The notes under the pieces were generated by a model. The model was given only the letters and a program-made list of their open reading frames with translations, was not told the origin of the DNA and made no database searches. From Actinacidiphila paucisporea (lineage in GTDB: Bacteria > Actinomycetota > Actinomycetes > Streptomycetales > Streptomycetaceae), in assembly GCF_900142575.1 (NCBI RefSeq), contig NZ_FRBI01000009.1, positions 62,001 through 126,000 on the forward strand: a stretch of DNA of 64,000 nt, read 5' to 3'. This document shows, piece by piece, positions 56,094-64,000 of the stretch; position 1 is the stretch's first letter, and the number at the start of each line of letters is the position of its first letter. Position numbers and translations under genes: made by a program.

Positions 56094-57017
56094 TCAGGCG
56101 GTCGCCTCCGCTCGTGCGGCCAGTGCCAGGACCCGCCGGGCGCCGGCCACCACCGCGGGGTCGATGAAGCGGCCGTCGGGCAGTGCCAGCGCGCCCGGGG
56201 AGGCGTCGGCCGCCGCGACCGTCTCCCGGGCCGCGGCGATCTCCGGCGCGGACGGCAGATACGCCCGCTCGATGACCGGGAGTTGGCGCGGGTGGATCGC
56301 GGCCCGCCCGAGGAAGCCCAGGGACCGGCCGCGCCGGCACGACGCGGCAAGGCCCGGCAGGTCGCGGACGTCGGGGTAGACCGACTGGGCCGGCGGCGCG
56401 AGCCCCGCCGCCCGCGCCGCGACCACCGTGCGGACCCGCGGCCACACCAGCGCCTCCTCGTCCGTGAGCCCCAGGTCGGCCCGCAGGTCGGCCTCACCCA
56501 GCGCGATGCCCTTGACGGCCGGGTCGGCCGACGCGATCGCGAAGGCGTTCTCCACCCCGAGCGCGGACTCCAGCAGCGGATACAGTCCGGGTACGTCACC
56601 GTGCTCGCGCAGCACCCGCACCACCCGGTCGACGTCCGCCGGCGAGCCGACCTTCGGCAGCCGCAGACCGCCGAGCCCGGGCAGCCCGGCGAGGGCCGCA
56701 AGGTCCGCGGCGAACAGCGGGCCGTGCAACGAGTTCACCCGGACATGCACCGCCGCGGGGCCCGCGACCGGCTCCGCGAGCAGCTCGGCGGTCGCGGCCC
56801 TGGCGTACTCCTTGCGAGCGGGGCCGACCGCGTCCTCCAGGTCGACCAGCACCACGTCGGCCCCGGACCGTAGCGCCTTGGCCACCACGTCGGGCCGGTC
56901 GCCCGGTGCGTAGAGCCAGGTCAGGGCGATGCCGGCGGCCGGGGGGCGGCGCCGGGGGCCCGCGTCGGGACCGCCGCCGGGCGCGGGCACCGTGGCGGCG
57001 CGGACCTGGCGGCTCAC
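56094..57017 (-). CDS. HpcH/HpaI-family (CitE-like) CoA-ester lyase
   Basis: A 307-aa TIM-barrel protein of the citrate-lyase-beta/malyl-CoA-lyase group. Family motifs are LYAPGDRPDVVAKAL, ADVVLVDLEDAVGP (metal/substrate Asp-Glu), RVNSLHGPLFAADL, LPLLESALGVENAFAI in the form LYPLLESALG, GEADLRADLGL and AAIHPRQLPVIE. Such enzymes cleave 3-hydroxyacyl-CoA esters such as malyl-, methylmalyl- or citramalyl-CoA. The GTG start overlaps the CoA-transferase stop (GTGA), so substrate activation and cleavage are coupled. The true substrate is unknown. Confidence 0.88.
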   Translation of the reverse strand: MSRQVRAATVPAPGGGPDAGPRRRPPAAGIALTWLYAPGDRPDVVAKALRSGADVVLVDLEDAVGPARKEYARAATAELLAEPVAGPAAVHVRVNSLHGPLFAADLAALAGLPGLGGLRLPKVGSPADVDRVVRVLREHGDVPGLYPLLESALGVENAFAIASADPAVKGIALGEADLRADLGLTDEEALVWPRVRTVVAARAAGLAPPAQSVYPDVRDLPGLAASCRRGRSLGFLGRAAIHPRQLPVIERAYLPSAPEIAAARETVAAADASPGALALPDGRFIDPAVVAGARRVLALAARAEATA

Positions 57018-58261
57018 AGCGCGCCCTCCTCGCGCAGCGCGGCGATCTGCGGTCCGGTCAGGCCGAGTTCGGCCAGCACCTCCGCGGTGTCGGCGCCGTG
57101 CGGCCGGCCCGTCCAGCGGATCGCCCCGGGGGTGGCGGACAGCCGGAAGAGCACGTTCTGCATCCGCAACCGGCCCAGGTCCTCGTCCTCGACCTGCGCC
57201 ACCGTGCCCAGCGCGCGGAACTGCGGGTCGGCGACCACGTCGCGCACGTCGTAGACCGGCGCGACCGCGGCCTGTGCCGACTCGAACGCGGCCACCACCT
57301 CCTCGCGGTCGTGCCGGCCGATCCAGTCGCCCACCACCTTGTCGATCTCGTCGGCGTGCGCGGCGCGCCCGGTGCCGGTCGCGAACCACGGCTCGTCGGT
57401 GAATTCCGGGTGCCCGACGAGCCGCAGCACCCGCTCGGCCACCGACTGCGCCGACGACGACACCGCCAGCCAGCTGCCGTCGGCGGTGCGATAGGTGTTG
57501 CGGGGCGCGTTGTTGGCCGAGCGGTTGCCCATCCTGGGCTGCACGTAGCCGAGCTGGTCGTACCAGAGCAGCTGCGGGCCGAGCACGGCGAGCATCGGCT
57601 CGATGATCGCCATGTCCACCACCTGCCCGGCGCCGGTGCGGTCCCGGCCGGCGAGCGCCGCCATCACCGCGTACGCGGTCGCCAGTCCCGCCACCGCGTC
57701 GGCCAGGCCGAACGGCGGCAGCGTCGGCGGGCCGTCCGGCTCACCGGTCGTCGCCGCGAAGCCGCTCATCGCCTCCGCGAGGGTGCCGAAACCCGGGCGG
57801 TTCGCGTACGGCCCGAACTGGCCGAAGGCGGTGACACGGGCCAGCACCAGCCGCGGGTTGGCGGCGGACAGCTCCGCCCAGCCCAGGCCCCACTTCTCCA
57901 GGGTGCCTGGGCGGAAGTTCTCGATGACCACGTCGGCGGAGGCGACCAGCTTGAGCAGTACGTCGCGCCCGCCGGCGGTGGACAGGTCGACGGTGATATT
58001 GCGCTTGTTGCGGCCGAGGTGTTTCCACCACAGGCCGACGCCGTTCTTGCCCGGGCCGTGGCCCCGGGACGGGTCGGGCTTGCTCGGGTGCTCGACCTTG
58101 ATCACGTCGGCGCCGAAGTCGCCGAGCAGGGTGGCGGCGCCGGGCCCGGCGAAGAGCGTGGCCAGGTCGAGGACCCGCATACCGGCCAGCGGGCCGGACG
58201 GCGGATCGGCGGCCGGTGCCGGGGCGGAAGGGGCCGCGTCCTGCGGATGCGGATCGTGCAT
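57014..58261 (-). CDS. CaiB/BaiF-family (class III) CoA-transferase
   Basis: A 415-aa formyl-CoA-transferase-like protein. Diagnostic parts are GPLAGMRVLDLATLFAGPGA (about 26-45), LGDFGADVIKVEHP, GLWWKHLGRNKRNI, DVVIENFRPGTLEKWGLG and the C-terminal PVYDVRDVVADPQF. The loop that carries the acyl-accepting Asp in many members (RPGYD) reads RPGFGTLAEAMSG, so that Asp is not obvious. It probably charges a carboxylic acid with CoA for the next gene product. The ATG follows AGGTAGGACC, which contains the ribokinase stop. Confidence 0.9.
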   Translation of the reverse strand: MHDPHPQDAAPSAPAPAADPPSGPLAGMRVLDLATLFAGPGAATLLGDFGADVIKVEHPSKPDPSRGHGPGKNGVGLWWKHLGRNKRNITVDLSTAGGRDVLLKLVASADVVIENFRPGTLEKWGLGWAELSAANPRLVLARVTAFGQFGPYANRPGFGTLAEAMSGFAATTGEPDGPPTLPPFGLADAVAGLATAYAVMAALAGRDRTGAGQVVDMAIIEPMLAVLGPQLLWYDQLGYVQPRMGNRSANNAPRNTYRTADGSWLAVSSSAQSVAERVLRLVGHPEFTDEPWFATGTGRAAHADEIDKVVGDWIGRHDREEVVAAFESAQAAVAPVYDVRDVVADPQFRALGTVAQVEDEDLGRLRMQNVLFRLSATPGAIRWTGRPHGADTAEVLAELGLTGPQIAALREEGAL

Positions 58262-58265
58262 GGTC

Positions 58266-59228
58266 CTACCTCTGTTCCGGTGTGCGTGCGGATCGTCCTG
58301 ACGGTGTGCGGTGCGCGGCGGCCGCGCGGGCGTCGATGGCGGCGCGGTGCGGCATCGAGGAGGAGGCGCCGGGGTGCTCAACGGACAGCGCCGAGGCCGC
58401 GGTCGCCCAGCCGAGCGCGTCGGCGGTCTCCCGGCCCTCGCCGAGCGCCACCGCCAGCGCCCCGACGAAGGTGTCGCCCGCCGCGGTGGTGTCCACCACG
58501 TCCGCCGCCAGCGCGGGCACCGCGAGCGGCTCCCGGCCGCGTACCGCGTGCAGGCTGCCCGCCGCGCCCAGCGTGATCACCACCTCAGGTACGGCGTCGA
58601 GCAGCGCGCGGGCTGCCGCACGCGGGTCGCGCCGGCCGCTGAGTGCGGCGGCCTCGTGCTCGTTCGGCACCAACAGGTCGGTGACGGCCAGCAGTTCGTC
58701 GGGCAGCGGTTGCGCGGGCGCGGGCGTGAGGACGGTCCGTACGCCCTGTGCCCTGGCCGCTCGCGCCCCGGCGAGCACGCCCGCGAGGGGGAGTTCGAGC
58801 TGCAGCAGCAGCGCGCCGGCGCGGCCGATCACCGCCTCGTCGTCCGAAGTCAGCCCGGTCACCGTTCCGTTGGCGCCGGGCACCACCACGATCGCGTTGT
58901 GCCCTTCGCCGTCCACCACGATCTGCGCGATGCCGCTGGGGCCCGGCGCCGTACGCAACCGGCCGGTGTCGACGCCCGCGTCCGCCAGCGCGGCACGCAG
59001 CCGTCCGCCGAAGTCGTCGTCGCCGACCGCTCCGATCATCGCGACGGCGCCGCCCGCCCGTGCGGCGGCGATGGCCTGGTTGGCGCCCTTGCCGCCGGCG
59101 ACCGTGCGGAACGACTCCCCGGTCACGGTCTCGCCGCGGGCCGGCGCGACCTTCACGTACGCGACCAGGTCCATGTTGGCGCTGCCCAGGACCGCGATCC
59201 CGGCCGGTCGTGCGGGGGGTGCTGTCAT
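58266..59228 (-). CDS. rbsK: Ribokinase (PfkB family)
   Basis: A 320-aa sugar kinase. The N-terminal PfkB signature is VAGGKGANQAIAAARAGG (about 43-60), the substrate region GSANMDLVAYV is present, and the C-terminal motif DTTAAGDTFVGAL carries the catalytic Asp. It would phosphorylate D-ribose (or a related pentose) freed by the adjacent hydrolases. Its start overlaps the stop of the upstream ADP-ribosylglycohydrolase gene (ATGA), and its stop lies within the ribosome-binding site of the CoA-transferase gene. Confidence 0.9.
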   Translation of the reverse strand: MTAPPARPAGIAVLGSANMDLVAYVKVAPARGETVTGESFRTVAGGKGANQAIAAARAGGAVAMIGAVGDDDFGGRLRAALADAGVDTGRLRTAPGPSGIAQIVVDGEGHNAIVVVPGANGTVTGLTSDDEAVIGRAGALLLQLELPLAGVLAGARAARAQGVRTVLTPAPAQPLPDELLAVTDLLVPNEHEAAALSGRRDPRAAARALLDAVPEVVITLGAAGSLHAVRGREPLAVPALAADVVDTTAAGDTFVGALAVALGEGRETADALGWATAASALSVEHPGASSSMPHRAAIDARAAAAHRTPSGRSARTPEQR

Positions 59229-60838
59229 GAGCTGCCTTCCTGCGGGAGGACCGCGAGCGCGGCGGTGCGCCGGGCGAGCGTGTCGAAGCCGATGCCGTCG
59301 AGGCCGCCGACCGTGGTCGACAGCCGGTTCCGCAGCGGGTCGGTCCACCGGTCGGGCAGCGCCGCGGGCGAACCCGCGAGCAGCCCGGCGACGGAGCCGG
59401 CCGTCGCGCCGTTCGAGTCGGTGTCCCAACCTCCCGACACGGCACGGGTGATGGAGCCGGTGAAGTCGCCGTCCGCGTGGGTGAGGGCGGCGGCCAGCAG
59501 GCTCACGTTGGGCAGCACGTGCACCCAGTGGTGGTCGCCGTACGCGGAGTGCAGGGCGTCCACCACGTCCGCGAAGCCCTCGGCCGTCCCCGTCGGCTCC
59601 GCACGGGCCGCCGCCACGCCGAACCGCACCGCCCGTGCCAGCCGCGACCCCGCGGGCACCACGTCGAGCCCGGCGGCCAGGCACGCGTGGACGTCGGCGC
59701 CGCCGCCCGCCGCCCGGGCGATCACCGCGGCGGCGAACATCGCCCCGTAGACGCCGTTCCCGGTGTGGGTGAGCACCGCGTCCCGCCACGCCTGGTCCGC
59801 GGCGGCGACCGGATCGCCCGGATGCGTCCAGCCGTGGACATCGGCCCTGATGAGCGCGCCGATCCACTCGCGGAAGGGATTGCGCCGGGTGGCTGTCCCC
59901 GGTGGCTCGACCCCGTCCAGCAGATTGCGGTAGGCGACCCGCTCGGCGGTGAAGGTCCGCCCCGCGGGCAGCTCGTCCAGCCACAGCCGCGCCACGTCGG
60001 CGGTGCTGAAGCCGTGGCCGTGCCTCTCCAGCAACAACAGCCCGAGCACCGGGTAGTTGAGGTCGTCGTCCTCCGGCATCCCGCTGATGTTCTCGGCGAG
60101 CGAGGTGCCCGCGCTGCGGCGGTTCCACGGATGGCGCCCGGCGACGGCCGGGTCGAGCCCGACGCCGGTGAACCAGCCGCCCAGCGGCCAGTTGCCGGTC
60201 CCGCGGGCGATCTCCCTGATCCCGCCGAGTGTCAGCTTCTCCACCGGCTTCCCGAGCAGGCATCCGACCGCCCGCCCGAGCCACCCGGCTTCCAGCCGCC
60301 CGGCCGGCACGGCGTGGTCACCGGCACCCGTCGCCGGAGCCGTCCCGCCCGCCATCACCGCGGTACGCCCGCGGGCCCGGAGGCCGGGAGCGGCGGGCGG
60401 CGCTCCCGCGTGCCCGGCCGGCGCCAGGCCGGCACGCGGCCCGTCCGACGCCGGGCGGTGCGGCTCGGCCCGGAAGGCGTGCCCCGAGGGCGGCGGCGGT
60501 GCCGCTGCCGGTCCTCCGGACCCGCCGGGCCGAGGCGGCGGCCACGCCGCGGCGAGCGCGTGGATCGCCGCCAGCTCGGTCGGCTCGGCCGCGTCCAGCA
60601 GGCCGGGCATCGCCGCCAGTTCGTCGAGCAGCCGTTCGGCCAGGGCGCGCAGCTCCGGGGCGGCGGGCACCGGGGAGGCGCCCGCGCGGGGCGGAGCGAG
60701 GTGGCCGCCCGCGGACAGCCAGCGGCGGCCCACCTCGGCCGGGTCACGGCCGTCCTCCGCCGCCTGGCGCAGTTCGTGGCCGATCAGGTCCTCCGGCTGG
60801 ACCCAGGTCAGCCGCACGTCCCCGGCGTGCGGCGTCAT
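59225..60838 (-). CDS. ADP-ribosylglycohydrolase family protein with N-terminal extension (paralogue 1)
   Basis: A 537-aa protein. Residues 1 to about 95 are an extra helical region (VQPEDLIGHELRQAAEDGRD; AERLLDELAAMPGLLDA), then a Pro/Ala-rich linker to about 185. The DraG/ARH domain follows: GWLGRAVGCLLGKPVEK, the first acidic cluster PEDDDLNYPVLGLLLL, and the metal motif SGGWDTDSNGATAGSVAGL (Asp472 and Asp474). The family cleaves N- or O-glycosidic bonds to ADP-ribose or related ribosides with two metal ions. It overlaps the ribokinase start, a strong hint that ribose is a product. Confidence 0.9.
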   Translation of the reverse strand: MTPHAGDVRLTWVQPEDLIGHELRQAAEDGRDPAEVGRRWLSAGGHLAPPRAGASPVPAAPELRALAERLLDELAAMPGLLDAAEPTELAAIHALAAAWPPPRPGGSGGPAAAPPPPSGHAFRAEPHRPASDGPRAGLAPAGHAGAPPAAPGLRARGRTAVMAGGTAPATGAGDHAVPAGRLEAGWLGRAVGCLLGKPVEKLTLGGIREIARGTGNWPLGGWFTGVGLDPAVAGRHPWNRRSAGTSLAENISGMPEDDDLNYPVLGLLLLERHGHGFSTADVARLWLDELPAGRTFTAERVAYRNLLDGVEPPGTATRRNPFREWIGALIRADVHGWTHPGDPVAAADQAWRDAVLTHTGNGVYGAMFAAAVIARAAGGGADVHACLAAGLDVVPAGSRLARAVRFGVAAARAEPTGTAEGFADVVDALHSAYGDHHWVHVLPNVSLLAAALTHADGDFTGSITRAVSGGWDTDSNGATAGSVAGLLAGSPAALPDRWTDPLRNRLSTTVGGLDGIGFDTLARRTAALAVLPQEGSS

Positions 60839-61980
60839 CGCACCTCCGCCAGAGCCGTGAACGCCGTCTCGTGCGCCCGGCGGCGTTCGGTGTCCCGGGT
60901 GAAGACCTCCCGGGTGACGGCGGTCAACTCCGCGGCGGGGGCGTAGAGATCGAGGCGACTGGCCCGGCCCACCTCGGTGCTCCACCCGGCGGGCACCGCC
61001 CCGGTGCCGCCGAGGGCTCCGGCGATCGCCCCGCTCATCGTGGCGATCGAGTCGCAGTCCCGCCCGTAATTCACCGAACCGAGCACCGCGGGCTCGTAGT
61101 CGCCGCCGCCGACCAGCAGCATGCCGAGTGCGACGGGGAGTTCCTCGATGGCGTGCAGCCGGGACGGGCGGCGGGCGCCGAGCGAGGGCTCGCGGTAGCG
61201 CGGCCCGACCGTGTCGAAGGGTGCGACGGCCTCCCGCAGCGGGCCGAGCGCCCGCTCCCAGTCATCGTAGCCCGCGGCCCGCTCGCACACCGCCTCGATC
61301 GCCGCCCGCGTACCGTCCTTGGCCAGCCCGAGCGCCGCGTCCACCACGCTCGCCGCGGTCGCGCCGGGCACGAAGGCCGCCGCGACGGCCGCGGCGAAGA
61401 CCCCCGCCGCCTCACGCCCGTAGGACGACTGGTGCGGCGCCGCCACCTCCACCGCCTCCGCGTAAGCCGCGGCCGGATTGCCGGCGTTGACCACGCCGAC
61501 CGGCGCCATGTACATCGCCGCACCGCAGTTGACGATGTTGCCGACGCCGGCCTCCCGCGGGTCCACGTGCCCGTAGTGCAGCCGGGCCACGATCCACTTC
61601 TCGGCCAGGAAGATCCGCTGCAACGGCAGCGCCTCCGCCTCCAGTTCGGGGATCCACCGGGGTGTGCCGATCAGGTCGGGCACCAGGTGCTCCGCGACGC
61701 TGTACGCGTCCAGGTGGTCGCGTACCTTGGCGTAGACCCGGACCAGCGCGTGCGTCATCAGGGTGTCGTCGGTGACGTGGCCGTCGCCCTTGTGATACGG
61801 CGCGATGGGCCGCGCGGTGCGCCAGTCCTCGTGGAAGGGGCCGACGATGCCGCGCACCCGGCCGCCGTGCCGTTCGGCGATCTGCTCCGGCGTCCAGCCC
61901 TCGACCGGGCCGCCGAGCGCGTCCCCGACAGCGGCGCCGGCGAGGCAGCCCGCGACGCGGTCCTCAAGCGTCAGTTTCAT
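60835..61980 (-). CDS. ADP-ribosylglycohydrolase family protein (paralogue 2)
   Basis: A 381-aa, single-domain member with the most canonical motifs: RVAGCLAGAAVGDALGGPVEG at the N-terminus (split), GDGHVTDDTLMTHALVRVY (first metal cluster) and NYGRDCDSIATMSGAIAGAL (second metal cluster). All expected acidic ligands are present, so it is probably active. Start and stop overlap both neighbours (17 bp and 4 bp). Confidence 0.93.
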   Translation of the reverse strand: MKLTLEDRVAGCLAGAAVGDALGGPVEGWTPEQIAERHGGRVRGIVGPFHEDWRTARPIAPYHKGDGHVTDDTLMTHALVRVYAKVRDHLDAYSVAEHLVPDLIGTPRWIPELEAEALPLQRIFLAEKWIVARLHYGHVDPREAGVGNIVNCGAAMYMAPVGVVNAGNPAAAYAEAVEVAAPHQSSYGREAAGVFAAAVAAAFVPGATAASVVDAALGLAKDGTRAAIEAVCERAAGYDDWERALGPLREAVAPFDTVGPRYREPSLGARRPSRLHAIEELPVALGMLLVGGGDYEPAVLGSVNYGRDCDSIATMSGAIAGALGGTGAVPAGWSTEVGRASRLDLYAPAAELTAVTREVFTRDTERRRAHETAFTALAEVR

Positions 61981-63316
61981 GGATTCCGAGTCCTCCTGGT
62001 CGTTCCTGGGCGGTGACGGCCGGCTCGACGGCGGCCAGCCGTCCGGCCAACTCCACGAGATCGAGGCCGGCCAGCCGCGGCAGCGCGCAGCCGGCCAGGG
62101 TCCTGCACGCGGCCCGCCACGAGGCGGGCAGACTGTGCGCCCCGCCGAGCGCGCCGGCCAGCGCGCCCGCCAGCGCGGGCGCGGAGTCCGCGACCCGCGA
62201 CAGGCACGCGGCGGCGGGCACCGCCTCGCCCACGGCGCCGTCGCCGGCCAGCACCAGGGCGAGGGCGACCGGCACCGTGTCGGCGGCGGCGATGCCGTAG
62301 CTGTAGACGTGGTCGATGATCTGGTGCTCCAGCAGCGGGACCAGGCCGAACGCCCGCCCGTGGACGCCGTCGCCGGCCGCACCGGCCGCGCGGGCGAGGG
62401 CGACCGCGTGCTCCGCGTTGCGCGCGATCTCCGAGCCGGGCGGCAACTGGGCCAGGGCCGCGGCCACGCAGTCCTGCGTCGGGGCGCCGGCCAGCGCGAG
62501 CGCGACGGCGGCTGCCATCGCACGGGCGCCGTGCACCCCGTCCTCGTCCTGGGTGTAGCGCGCGTCGTATTCGGCGAGGTCGGCGGCGGCCGCCGGGTCG
62601 CCGGGGTGGACCACGGCGAGCACGCAGGCCCGCCCGCAGGCGGCGTCGTCGAAGAAGTGCGGGTTGTCGTGGCCGGTGGCGGGCGGGCGCAGGCCGGTGG
62701 CGAGATTGCCGAGCCCCGCCCGTACCGAGATCCTGGCCCGCAGCGGGATCACCGCGGACTCGACCTCGGGCGCACGGGCCGCCGCCGAGGAGATCTCGGC
62801 GGCCAGCGACATCCAGGCGAGGTCCACCGCGGCGCGCACCCGCCGGTCGCGGCTGAGGTCGCTGAGCGGCGCCCCGCGCGAGGCGAGCACCGCCTCCGCG
62901 GTGAAGGCCGCCCACTCGGCGTCGTCGGAAGGCCCGAGCCGCAGCGGCTCGGGCGGCTGGTTGAGGGCGATCGGCACGGGCAGGGTGGTCGTCTCGTTCT
63001 GTTCGGCGAAGGTGTCCAGCTCGCGCGTCAGCCGCCGCGTCCACTCGGGCATCCGCGCCGCCCGGTGCCGCGCCGCGGGCCACCCGGCGGCGTCCCCTGC
63101 GGCGAGCCCGAGCAGCAGCCCTTCGACCCGCGACCGCGCCTCGTCCCCTCCCGCGGCCCCCTGGCTCGGGACGCCGGCGGCCGCTCGCCCCCTGCCGCGG
63201 GGCCGCGGCGGTGTCGCGTCGGTAGTGCGTGGGGCGGGACCGGGGTGGCGGGGCGCCGCGGGGCCGGCAGGGGGTGTGGCCGCTGTCGCGGCCGCGGTGC
63301 AGGGCCGGTGGGTCAT
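61964..63316 (-). CDS. ADP-ribosylglycohydrolase-like protein, degenerate metal site (paralogue 3)
   Basis: A 450-aa member. An Ala/Pro/Arg-rich N-terminal stretch of about 60 residues precedes RVEGLLLGLAAGDAAGWPAA. The first acidic cluster appears as LGPSDDAEWAAFTAEAVLA. The second, normally GRDxDS/T, reads LSRVADSAPALAGALAGALG, so only one of its two metal-binding Asp residues remains. Catalysis may be changed or lost; a regulatory or substrate-binding role is possible. It overlaps paralogue 2 by 17 bp and paralogue 4 by 4 bp. Confidence 0.85.
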   Translation of the reverse strand: MTHRPCTAAATAATPPAGPAAPRHPGPAPRTTDATPPRPRGRGRAAAGVPSQGAAGGDEARSRVEGLLLGLAAGDAAGWPAARHRAARMPEWTRRLTRELDTFAEQNETTTLPVPIALNQPPEPLRLGPSDDAEWAAFTAEAVLASRGAPLSDLSRDRRVRAAVDLAWMSLAAEISSAAARAPEVESAVIPLRARISVRAGLGNLATGLRPPATGHDNPHFFDDAACGRACVLAVVHPGDPAAAADLAEYDARYTQDEDGVHGARAMAAAVALALAGAPTQDCVAAALAQLPPGSEIARNAEHAVALARAAGAAGDGVHGRAFGLVPLLEHQIIDHVYSYGIAAADTVPVALALVLAGDGAVGEAVPAAACLSRVADSAPALAGALAGALGGAHSLPASWRAACRTLAGCALPRLAGLDLVELAGRLAAVEPAVTAQERPGGLGIHETDA

Positions 63317-64000
63317 GAGGCGGCCCGTCCCGCGGTGGCGTGGCCGTGCTCGTCGGGGGTGAGCAGGTCGGCGATGTCGTGGACGTGGTAGCCGGCCATC
63401 GCGGGGAGGCAGCTGCCGCGTACCGCCTTGACGGCACGCGACCAGCGGTAGGGGATGGCGGAACAGCCGCCGAGCGTACCGGCGAGCGCGCCCGCGACCG
63501 CGGCCGTGGTGTCGGCGTCCCTGCCCATGTTCACCGCCGTGAGCACCGAGCCGGTGAAGTCGCCCGCCGCCAGGGCGAACGCGCCGAAGGCCAGGCCCAC
63601 CGCCTCGGGGGCCAGGTCGGTCCACGGGTAGCCGCCGATGACGACCGCGGCACGCAGCGCCCGCTCCCGGTCGAGCACCGTCAGGCCGGCGTCGAGCCTG
63701 ACCCGGCGGGCCACCGTCACCGCCCGGCGCAGCGAGCGGGCGGTCCAGGAGTCCTCGGGCACCACCGTCAGCGCGGCGGTGATCACCGCGGCGCAGTCCG
63801 CGCCGCCCATCGCCGCCGCGACGCCCGCCGCGACGGCCTGCCCGCCGTAGATCCCCTCGCCTTCGTGGCTGACCGTGCCGTCGATGGCGACCAGCCGCGC
63901 GGCCTCGGCGGGACGCCCGGCGGCGAAGACACCGCAGGGCGCGGCACGCATCGCGAGCCCGTCGCTCCACGCGTGCCGGTGCTGTGCGGTGATCGGCGAG
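63313..64000 (-). CDS. ADP-ribosylglycohydrolase family protein (paralogue 4, N-terminus outside window)
   Basis: The frame is open to the window edge (reading ...HAWSDGLAMRAAPCG at 63990-63935), so the start lies beyond 64000. About 228 residues are visible, the C-terminal two thirds: HEGEGIYGGQAVAAGVAAAM, the mid-domain helices and the intact metal motif VNMGRDADTTAAVAGALAGT. It ends overlapping the start of paralogue 3 (ATGA). The operon continues to the right. Confidence 0.88.
   Translation of the reverse strand, partial: SPITAQHRHAWSDGLAMRAAPCGVFAAGRPAEAARLVAIDGTVSHEGEGIYGGQAVAAGVAAAMGGADCAAVITAALTVVPEDSWTARSLRRAVTVARRVRLDAGLTVLDRERALRAAVVIGGYPWTDLAPEAVGLAFGAFALAAGDFTGSVLTAVNMGRDADTTAAVAGALAGTLGGCSAIPYRWSRAVKAVRGSCLPAMAGYHVHDIADLLTPDEHGHATAGRAAS

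Follow-up and report, generated by a model that had tools for sequence, protein, structure and literature searches.

Described ARH systems and the locus of Actinacidiphila paucisporea

The ADP-ribosylglycohydrolase (ARH) family, PF03747, is known mainly for removing ADP-ribose from proteins and nucleic acids. A stretch of 64,000 nucleotides from Actinacidiphila paucisporea (contig NZ_FRBI01000009.1, positions 62,001 to 126,000; G000:C60:62001-126000, hereafter the window) carries four consecutive genes of this family, named here ARH1 to ARH4 in gene order, together with genes for a PfkB-family kinase, a CaiB/BaiF-family protein (CaiB) and an HpcH/CitE-family lyase (CitE). These seven genes belong to an operon of 11 genes, whose 3' part they form and which reaches past the window, with the order LacI-permease 1-permease 2-SBP-ARH1-ARH2-ARH3-ARH4-PfkB-CaiB-CitE, where SBP is a solute-binding protein. 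This operon is real, conserved and larger than in the preliminary description of the window, and it is most likely devoted to riboside catabolism. No description of this gene set was found in the open-licence literature.

The nearest described arrangement found is yegTUV of Escherichia coli, in which, according to the accessible part of the published account, a transporter, an ARH and a PfkB kinase are controlled by the single-target repressor GgaR, which answers ADP-glucose (PMC10819704). The A. paucisporea operon resembles yegTUV in combining a transporter, ARH and PfkB kinase under what may be a single-target repressor, whereas yegTUV has one ARH, an MFS-type transporter and a GntR-type regulator and lacks CaiB and CitE. 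YegU is about 25% identical to ARH3 and ARH1, and YegV matches the operon kinase with an E value of 0.005 and the ribokinase model with 83 bits. The comparison does not support membership in the yegTUV system, the ARH and the kinase being remote in sequence. The (ADP-ribosyl)hydrolases DraG, ARH1 and ARH3 share with the operon proteins PF03747, in operon ARH2 and ARH4 the modelled ARH fold and, in operon ARH1 and ARH3, the metal-site motifs, whereas the operon ARHs fall far under the DRAG and Tri1 equivalog cut-offs, operon ARH2 lacks metal-site residues, and the gene context appears to be catabolic. The CaiB and CitE (RipC) modules of itaconate/citramalyl-CoA metabolism are similar in that operon CitE is closest to RipC and operon CaiB belongs to family III, whereas operon CaiB and CitE fall far under the equivalog cut-offs and operon CaiB lacks the nucleophile Asp. 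The Bacteroides ribose system, a possible lead, was set aside: its locus, in the part of the source available, has a ribokinase and a nucleoside hydrolase and no ARH.

Streptomyces coelicolor has far more ADP-ribosyl hydrolases than transferases, and eight DraG/ARH homologues are listed for it in the portions of the literature at hand. SCO2028-SCO2030 in one paper and SCO2028-SCO2031 in another appear there as uncharacterised DraG/ARH homologues, and purified SCO2028 and SCO2030 show no detectable activity on U-alpha-ADPr (PMC13036486, available in part). These papers treat the SCO genes as ADP-ribosylation hydrolases, and the operon goes unmentioned in the sections available.

Organization of the operon

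The seven genes that the preliminary description placed at 56094-64000 are all present and confirmed by Pfam, and every junction overlaps or nearly overlaps, in agreement with its proposal of a single operon. A transporter and a regulator, which it had suggested seeking beyond position 64000, are found there as an SBP, two permeases and a LacI protein. The flank was fetched as L009, in which the window position equals the L009 position plus 49999. The genes are as follows.

L009 17792-18874, upstream of the window end: LacI (Pfam/NCBIfam)
L009 16842-17795, upstream of the window end: ABC permease 1 (Pfam/NCBIfam)
L009 15934-16845, upstream of the window end: ABC permease 2 (Pfam/NCBIfam)
L009 14615-15934, upstream of the window end: SBP, lipoprotein-like (Pfam/NCBIfam)
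63313..64000 (-), continuing past the window end: ARH1, ADP-ribosylglycohydrolase paralogue 1, 367 aa (PF03747; motifs)
61964..63316 (-): ARH2, diverged ARH paralogue, 450 aa (PF03747; AlphaFold model)
60835..61980 (-): ARH3, ARH paralogue, 381 aa (PF03747; motifs)
59225..60838 (-): ARH4, ARH paralogue, 537 aa, extended N-terminally by helices and a disordered linker (PF03747; AlphaFold model)
58266..59228 (-): PfkB-family ribokinase-type kinase, 320 aa (Pfam PfkB 201.6 bits; TIGR02152 288.1 bits)
57014..58261 (-): CaiB/BaiF-family protein, 415 aa (Pfam CoA_transf_3 414.5 bits)
56094..57017 (-): HpcH/CitE-family C-C lyase, CitE, 307 aa (Pfam HpcH_HpaI 124.8 bits)

The start codon of ARH1 lies outside the window at L009:14417 (extrapolated window position 64416), giving a full span of L009 13314-14417. 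All four ARHs reach the PF03747 gathering cut-off of 26.2, with 178, 122, 180 and 157 bits, respectively. LacI, permease 1, permease 2 and SBP overlap one another by 1-4 bp, and a gap of 197 bp separates SBP from ARH1. ARH1/ARH2, ARH3/ARH4, ARH4/PfkB and CaiB/CitE overlap by 4 bp each and ARH2/ARH3 by 17 bp, while PfkB and CaiB are separated by a 4-bp gap. The joint presence of LacI, SBP and two permeases of carbohydrate type, as assigned by Pfam and NCBIfam, is as in LacI-controlled ABC sugar operons.

Conservation of the operon

The neighbourhood is conserved in actinomycetes, where the preliminary description had proposed a survey, and is not restricted to one strain, a result that this description would have taken as a refutation. 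The same 11 genes are present in 3 of 20 relatives examined (G002, G006 and G011), about 69-96% identical, and five loci from two further actinomycete families (L118, L119, L120, L122 and L123) have all 11 genes in identical order. In L118, ARH1 overlaps SBP; L121 is without a called ARH2, and L125 and L131 are contig-end pieces. When 100 Actinomycetota genomes were searched with PF03747, three or more ARH genes stood side by side only in the Streptomycetaceae genomes G000 and G043. Among the matches listed for 118 Actinomycetes genomes, at least 13, the A. paucisporea genome included, have at least three adjacent ARH genes, namely seven Streptomycetaceae (of eight examined), five members of family f56 and, from family f54, G198; two more candidate clusters on the same list, in G131 and G186, are cut by contig ends. 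Since at least three adjacent ARH genes recur in at least 13 of 118 genomes and the same order is kept in other families, the ARH cluster is beyond chance.

The distribution within Streptomycetaceae was followed by tblastn in 80 loci, the best 80 of 574 relatives in a scan with an ARH3 alignment, all from this family; a match there is not proof of an intact gene, as in L067 with its broken ARH1 and ARH2 calls, and the codon-usage caller truncates some starts, including ARH1 of L009, whose start as listed above does not come from this caller. The full core of ARH1-4, CaiB and CitE is matched in 68 of the 80 loci. PfkB, LacI and ABC genes accompany it in 17 of these 68 and PfkB only in 28; LacI and ABC genes without PfkB are found in 7, LacI only in 1 and none of them in 15. 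The core is incomplete in the other 12; contig ends truncate nine of these, and L051, L059 and L073 are uncut. At least one marker of a gltB-VIT1 ... lgt-dsbA-trpAB neighbourhood flanks the block in 60 of the 80 loci, the arrangement being seen in L052, L065, L067 and L089, and in 50 of these 60 neither LacI nor ABC genes are matched; five of the 50 are cut on that side.

In loci without a called LacI, the median dN/dS is 0.20 for ARH1, 0.24 for ARH2, 0.24 for ARH3, 0.31 for ARH4, 0.22 for CaiB and 0.30 for CitE, as estimated by a simple method from up to 400 random pairs per gene in 42-45 loci; L116, a truncated contig on which ABC genes are present, is counted among the 45. The median for SBP, in the loci that carry it, is 0.60. 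These ratios indicate that ARH1-4, CaiB and CitE are under purifying selection, also without a called LacI. Since many Streptomyces loci without the importer and repressor keep these six genes under such selection, the substrate there probably arises within the cell or is taken up through a different transporter.

The accessible part of PMC5036795 gives trpX as SCO2038, and the 'SCO2028' in the same paper was taken from the passage context as a slip for SCO2038. Since gltB-trp synteny is found in 60 of 80 loci, the published lists name SCO2028-SCO2030 or SCO2028-SCO2031, and trpX is SCO2038, the orthologous block of S. coelicolor is most likely SCO2028-SCO2033. Judged by this synteny and not by sequence, S. 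coelicolor would resemble A. paucisporea in having four consecutive ARH genes, SCO2028-SCO2031, with SCO2032-SCO2033 alongside. The numbering, judged from the neighbouring genes, presumably leaves no room for LacI and ABC genes or a kinase.

The four ARH proteins

ARH2, ARH3 and ARH4 align with ARH1 at 33-35% identity. A tree of eight loci per paralogue and nine other proteins, for which the program warns of long branches, places them in separate clades with supports of 96/93 for ARH1, 100/98 for ARH2, 100/100 for ARH3 and 100/100 for ARH4. ARH1 and ARH2 are sisters at 94/87, and both of their clades include copies from a mini-operon described below; the ARH4 clade includes genes of L035 and L037. 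The four ARHs thus look like old, separate subfamilies with a matching order in each genome and not like recent duplicates.

The metal-site residues of ARH3 enzymes lie in the motifs GDxxGxxxE, TDDT and DxDT/S. These motifs are intact in ARH1 (GDALGAPAE, TDDTEY, SDGLAMR and GRDADTT) and in ARH3 (GDALGGPVE, TDDT and GRDCDS). ARH4 has altered motifs (LGKPVE, EDDD and GGWDTDS), in which GD has become GC and TDDT has become EDDD while the Glu and DTDS are retained. In an alignment to solved ARH3, ARH2 lacks the metal-site Glu, replaced by Ala82 (GDAAGWPAA for GDALGxPxE), and the first Asp of DxDT, replaced by Val375 (SRVADS for GGDTDT). AlphaFold models of ARH2 and ARH4, each folded from an alignment of 30 rows, were compared over the ARH domain, without the N-terminal part of ARH4, with structures ranked by Foldseek. 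Both best match ARH3 structures, ARH2 with a Z score of 28.9 and an rmsd of 2.8 over 287 aligned residues (mean pLDDT 72.9) and ARH4 with 30.4 and 3.0 over 304 (mean pLDDT 79.4). The N-terminus of ARH4, at window positions 60320-60838, has about 100 conserved residues predicted as helices, followed by a long linker predicted to be disordered.

Elsewhere in the A. paucisporea genome, a PF03747 match at G000:C23:148595-149276 is split into three pieces and is possibly a broken ARH gene.

The kinase, the repressor and a putative operator

Eight copies of the operon were searched, and in six (G169, G153, G212, G223, G043 and G155) the operon kinase passes the TIGR02152 ribokinase equivalog cut-off of 299.65 bits; in those six genomes it is the best or sole TIGR02152 match. 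At E <=1e-60 it is the sole match in A. paucisporea, G155 and G212. G184 has no PfkB in its operon and one elsewhere, at 294.6 bits. The Asp, GGK, Asn, Glu and Asp (GDTF) motifs, which hold substrate-binding and catalytic residues of ribokinases, are retained in 66-67 of 67 orthologs. Ribose as the product would be the strongest single pointer to what the substrate is.

The best NCBIfam models for LacI include RbsR, with 194.9 bits (cut-off 382, not reached), and GntR, with 193.5 bits. A perfect 14-bp palindrome, TGTAAACGTTTACA, lies immediately 5' of the earliest possible start of LacI, which may in fact begin further in, and is the single such site in the 8.16-Mb genome at up to one mismatch. 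Of 39 LacI loci, 7 have an identical palindrome close to the start of LacI, A. paucisporea included, all from this genus or near it. The scan of LacI starts covered perfect palindromes of 14 bases centred on CG; beyond this group, L095 gave one variant and L121 a different palindrome in two copies. The palindrome and its single genomic site fit a local, single-operon repressor with TGTAAACGTTTACA as its putative operator. A regulon with a shared operator was rejected because there is one site genome-wide, so that no further pathway genes can be named in this way.

CaiB and CitE

An Asp residue is the catalytic nucleophile of class III CoA-transferases. In a profile alignment, Gly159 of CaiB (codon at 57785-57787) occupies the position of this Asp; of the five solved relatives shown, four have Asp there, and only a benzylsuccinate CoA-transferase subunit shares the Gly. 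Sequences of the RPGFG type are common in the CaiB family, and CaiB may belong to an already known Asp-less branch. No second CoA-transferase partner is evident: A. paucisporea encodes a single further PF02515 protein, which by its sequence resembles an acyl-CoA racemase, lies beside a thiolase and keeps the Asp.

The closest NCBIfam model to CitE is RipC, with 165.9 bits, the cut-off of 375 not being reached. E150, D177 and R93 are invariant in 92 of 92 CitE orthologs, and acidic residues serve as metal ligands in proteins of this family.

In G151, a CaiB-CitE pair lies in an acid-catabolism cluster (L138:5586-12153) with a TRAP (DctM-type) permease, an RraA-type aldolase, a DUF1932 dehydrogenase and an IclR regulator.

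A possible role of the operon and its alternatives

The proposed explanation, to which we give about an even chance, is that the 11 genes form a catabolic operon for an imported ribose-containing glycoside. The LacI repressor would be released by the substrate or product, and the ABC importer would bring in the riboside with an ATPase supplied from elsewhere. ARH1, ARH3 and ARH4, which retain most or all of the metal ligands, would hydrolyse ribosyl bonds in the cytoplasm, ARH2 would be a non-standard or structural partner, and the kinase would phosphorylate ribose to ribose 5-phosphate. CaiB and CitE would constitute a partly separable module for a hydroxy-acid part of the substrate, with CitE as a metal-dependent C-C lyase and CaiB acting by a route that is unable to use the usual Asp anhydride. 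A more specific form, in which four old ARH-fold subfamilies scavenge carbon by dismantling a ribosyl conjugate of a hydroxy-acid, with ARH2, lacking its metal site, perhaps in a hetero-complex and a CaiB-fold protein working without Asp-anhydride chemistry, is offered tentatively and is doubtful as a whole. If true, SCO2028-2031 of S. coelicolor would be metabolic glycosidases and not erasers of ADP-ribosylation, and if four of its eight listed DraG/ARH homologues are sugar-catabolic, part of the hydrolase surplus would be explained. It would also imply a metabolic rather than a signalling role for the ARH family and point to a ribosyl compound in soil or cell.

Several observations weigh against the catabolic explanation. 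On the sugar side, the A. paucisporea kinase, with 288.1 bits, is under the ribokinase cut-off, as is the G198 operon kinase with 295.0, a copy elsewhere in G198 scoring higher at 297.6; PfkB is without a match in 23 of the 68 core loci, and LacI and ABC are both without a match in 43. No ABC ATPase is encoded among the 11 genes, no search having been made elsewhere in the genome; Streptomyces ABC sugar importers share an ATPase encoded elsewhere, MsiK. The SBP match is specific only to 'carbohydrate-type', and its closest PDB binding proteins are mixed, mostly carbohydrate binders, from which no ligand name was obtainable. The identical palindrome is missing near LacI in 32 of 39 loci, the same-genus L033 among them. 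On the acid side, the nucleophile position of CaiB is Gly in 94 of 94 orthologs. Finally, the gene set comes apart in places: L051:3142-13436 has the whole sugar module and no CaiB or CitE match in a 21-kb locus, L059:9869-12372 retains only ARH3 and an overlapping CaiB, L073:9965-12567 retains only ARH3 and ARH4, and the CaiB and CitE of G151, 62% and 53% identical to the operon proteins, lie about 8 kb from an ARH1-ARH2/ABC mini-operon.

The riboside-catabolism interpretation of the preliminary description is partly supported. Its ribokinase trap stands insofar as the kinase passes the equivalog cut-off in most copies searched, and is not supported as an integral part, given the core loci without PfkB. 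It had taken CaiB as an acid-activating CoA-transferase; since the nucleophile Asp is replaced by Gly in all orthologs, CaiB cannot be assumed to be the usual activator, and activation of the acid in the usual way is not supported by the sequences. Nor is its view of every ARH paralogue as a catalyst supported for ARH2, whose metal site has lost its Glu and one Asp. The sugar and acid halves, which it had joined in one obligatory route, are linked but separable, since L051 lacks CaiB and CitE, L059 and L073 keep only parts of the set, and the G151 pair lies apart. The sugar half is moderately supported, and the acid half is less secure.

Separability leads to the alternative that a sugar module (LacI, ABC, ARH1-4 and kinase) and an acid module (CaiB and CitE) are independent and simply share a transcript. 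L051 and the G151 acid cluster are as this would predict, whereas matches to CaiB and CitE accompany those to ARH1-4 in the 68 core loci, including the 15 without LacI, ABC and kinase, L059 keeps ARH3 with CaiB, and overlaps join the two halves in L118, L120 and L123; we regard two independent modules as unlikely. Quite unlikely, too, is that the ARHs are true (ADP-ribosyl)hydrolases that erase protein, nucleic-acid or small-molecule ADP-ribosylation, with the kinase recycling ribose and the other genes as passengers. Family membership and fold, the metal-site motifs kept in ARH1 and ARH3, the classification of SCO2028-SCO2031 as DraG/ARH homologues in the available parts of the Streptomyces papers, and the 43 core loci without an importer or LacI match all speak for such hydrolases. 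Against them stand the operon context, which in three families links the ARHs to LacI, an importer of carbohydrate type and a ribokinase-type kinase, and the inactivity of purified SCO2028 and SCO2030 on one ADP-ribosylated substrate, U-alpha-ADPr, in the portion of PMC13036486 at hand.

The sugar may also be other than ribose, the PfkB kinase acting on the sugar of another glycoside. Importers of this type mostly carry oligosaccharides and related glycosides, and the A. paucisporea and G198 kinases are under the ribokinase cut-off. PfkB kinases can also have ribose as a side activity, as the authors suggest in the accessible part of a paper on Salmonella RikA (PMC13432705). Yet the operon kinases of six genomes pass this cut-off, each as the best or sole match of its genome. 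The ARH fold, moreover, is known for ribosyl bonds, and another sugar appears improbable. Least probable, and barely to be expected, is a salvage route for a nucleotide-sugar or nucleotide derivative like the one proposed for yegTUV, where the accessible text describes the same three kinds of protein with a single-target repressor (PMC10819704); the low similarity of YegU and YegV to their operon counterparts and the different importer and regulator families argue against it.

Related gene arrangements in other genomes

In four loci, an extra gene of about 650 aa lies between PfkB and CaiB (L118:4380-6359, L119:4687-6609, L122:5523-7400 and L131:3735-5681), and in L125:2648-5638 it is fused to the PfkB kinase. 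Its C-terminus matches the FGE-sulfatase (FGE/EgtB-like) domain in both copies scanned, those of L118 and L125. The N-terminal half has no Pfam match at threshold in these two copies and no convincing PDB sequence match; a reading of its motifs gives the impression of a glycosidase-like barrel.

ARH4-like genes, about 50% identical to ARH4 and followed by a ketopantoate reductase-like gene, are found at L035:9977-12100, L036:9873-11935 and L037:10059-12192, and were set aside on account of this different gene context. The mini-operon of family f54 (L129:8960-15358 and L130:412-6833) combines an ARH1-ARH2 pair with divergently oriented genes for LacI, SBP and two permeases.

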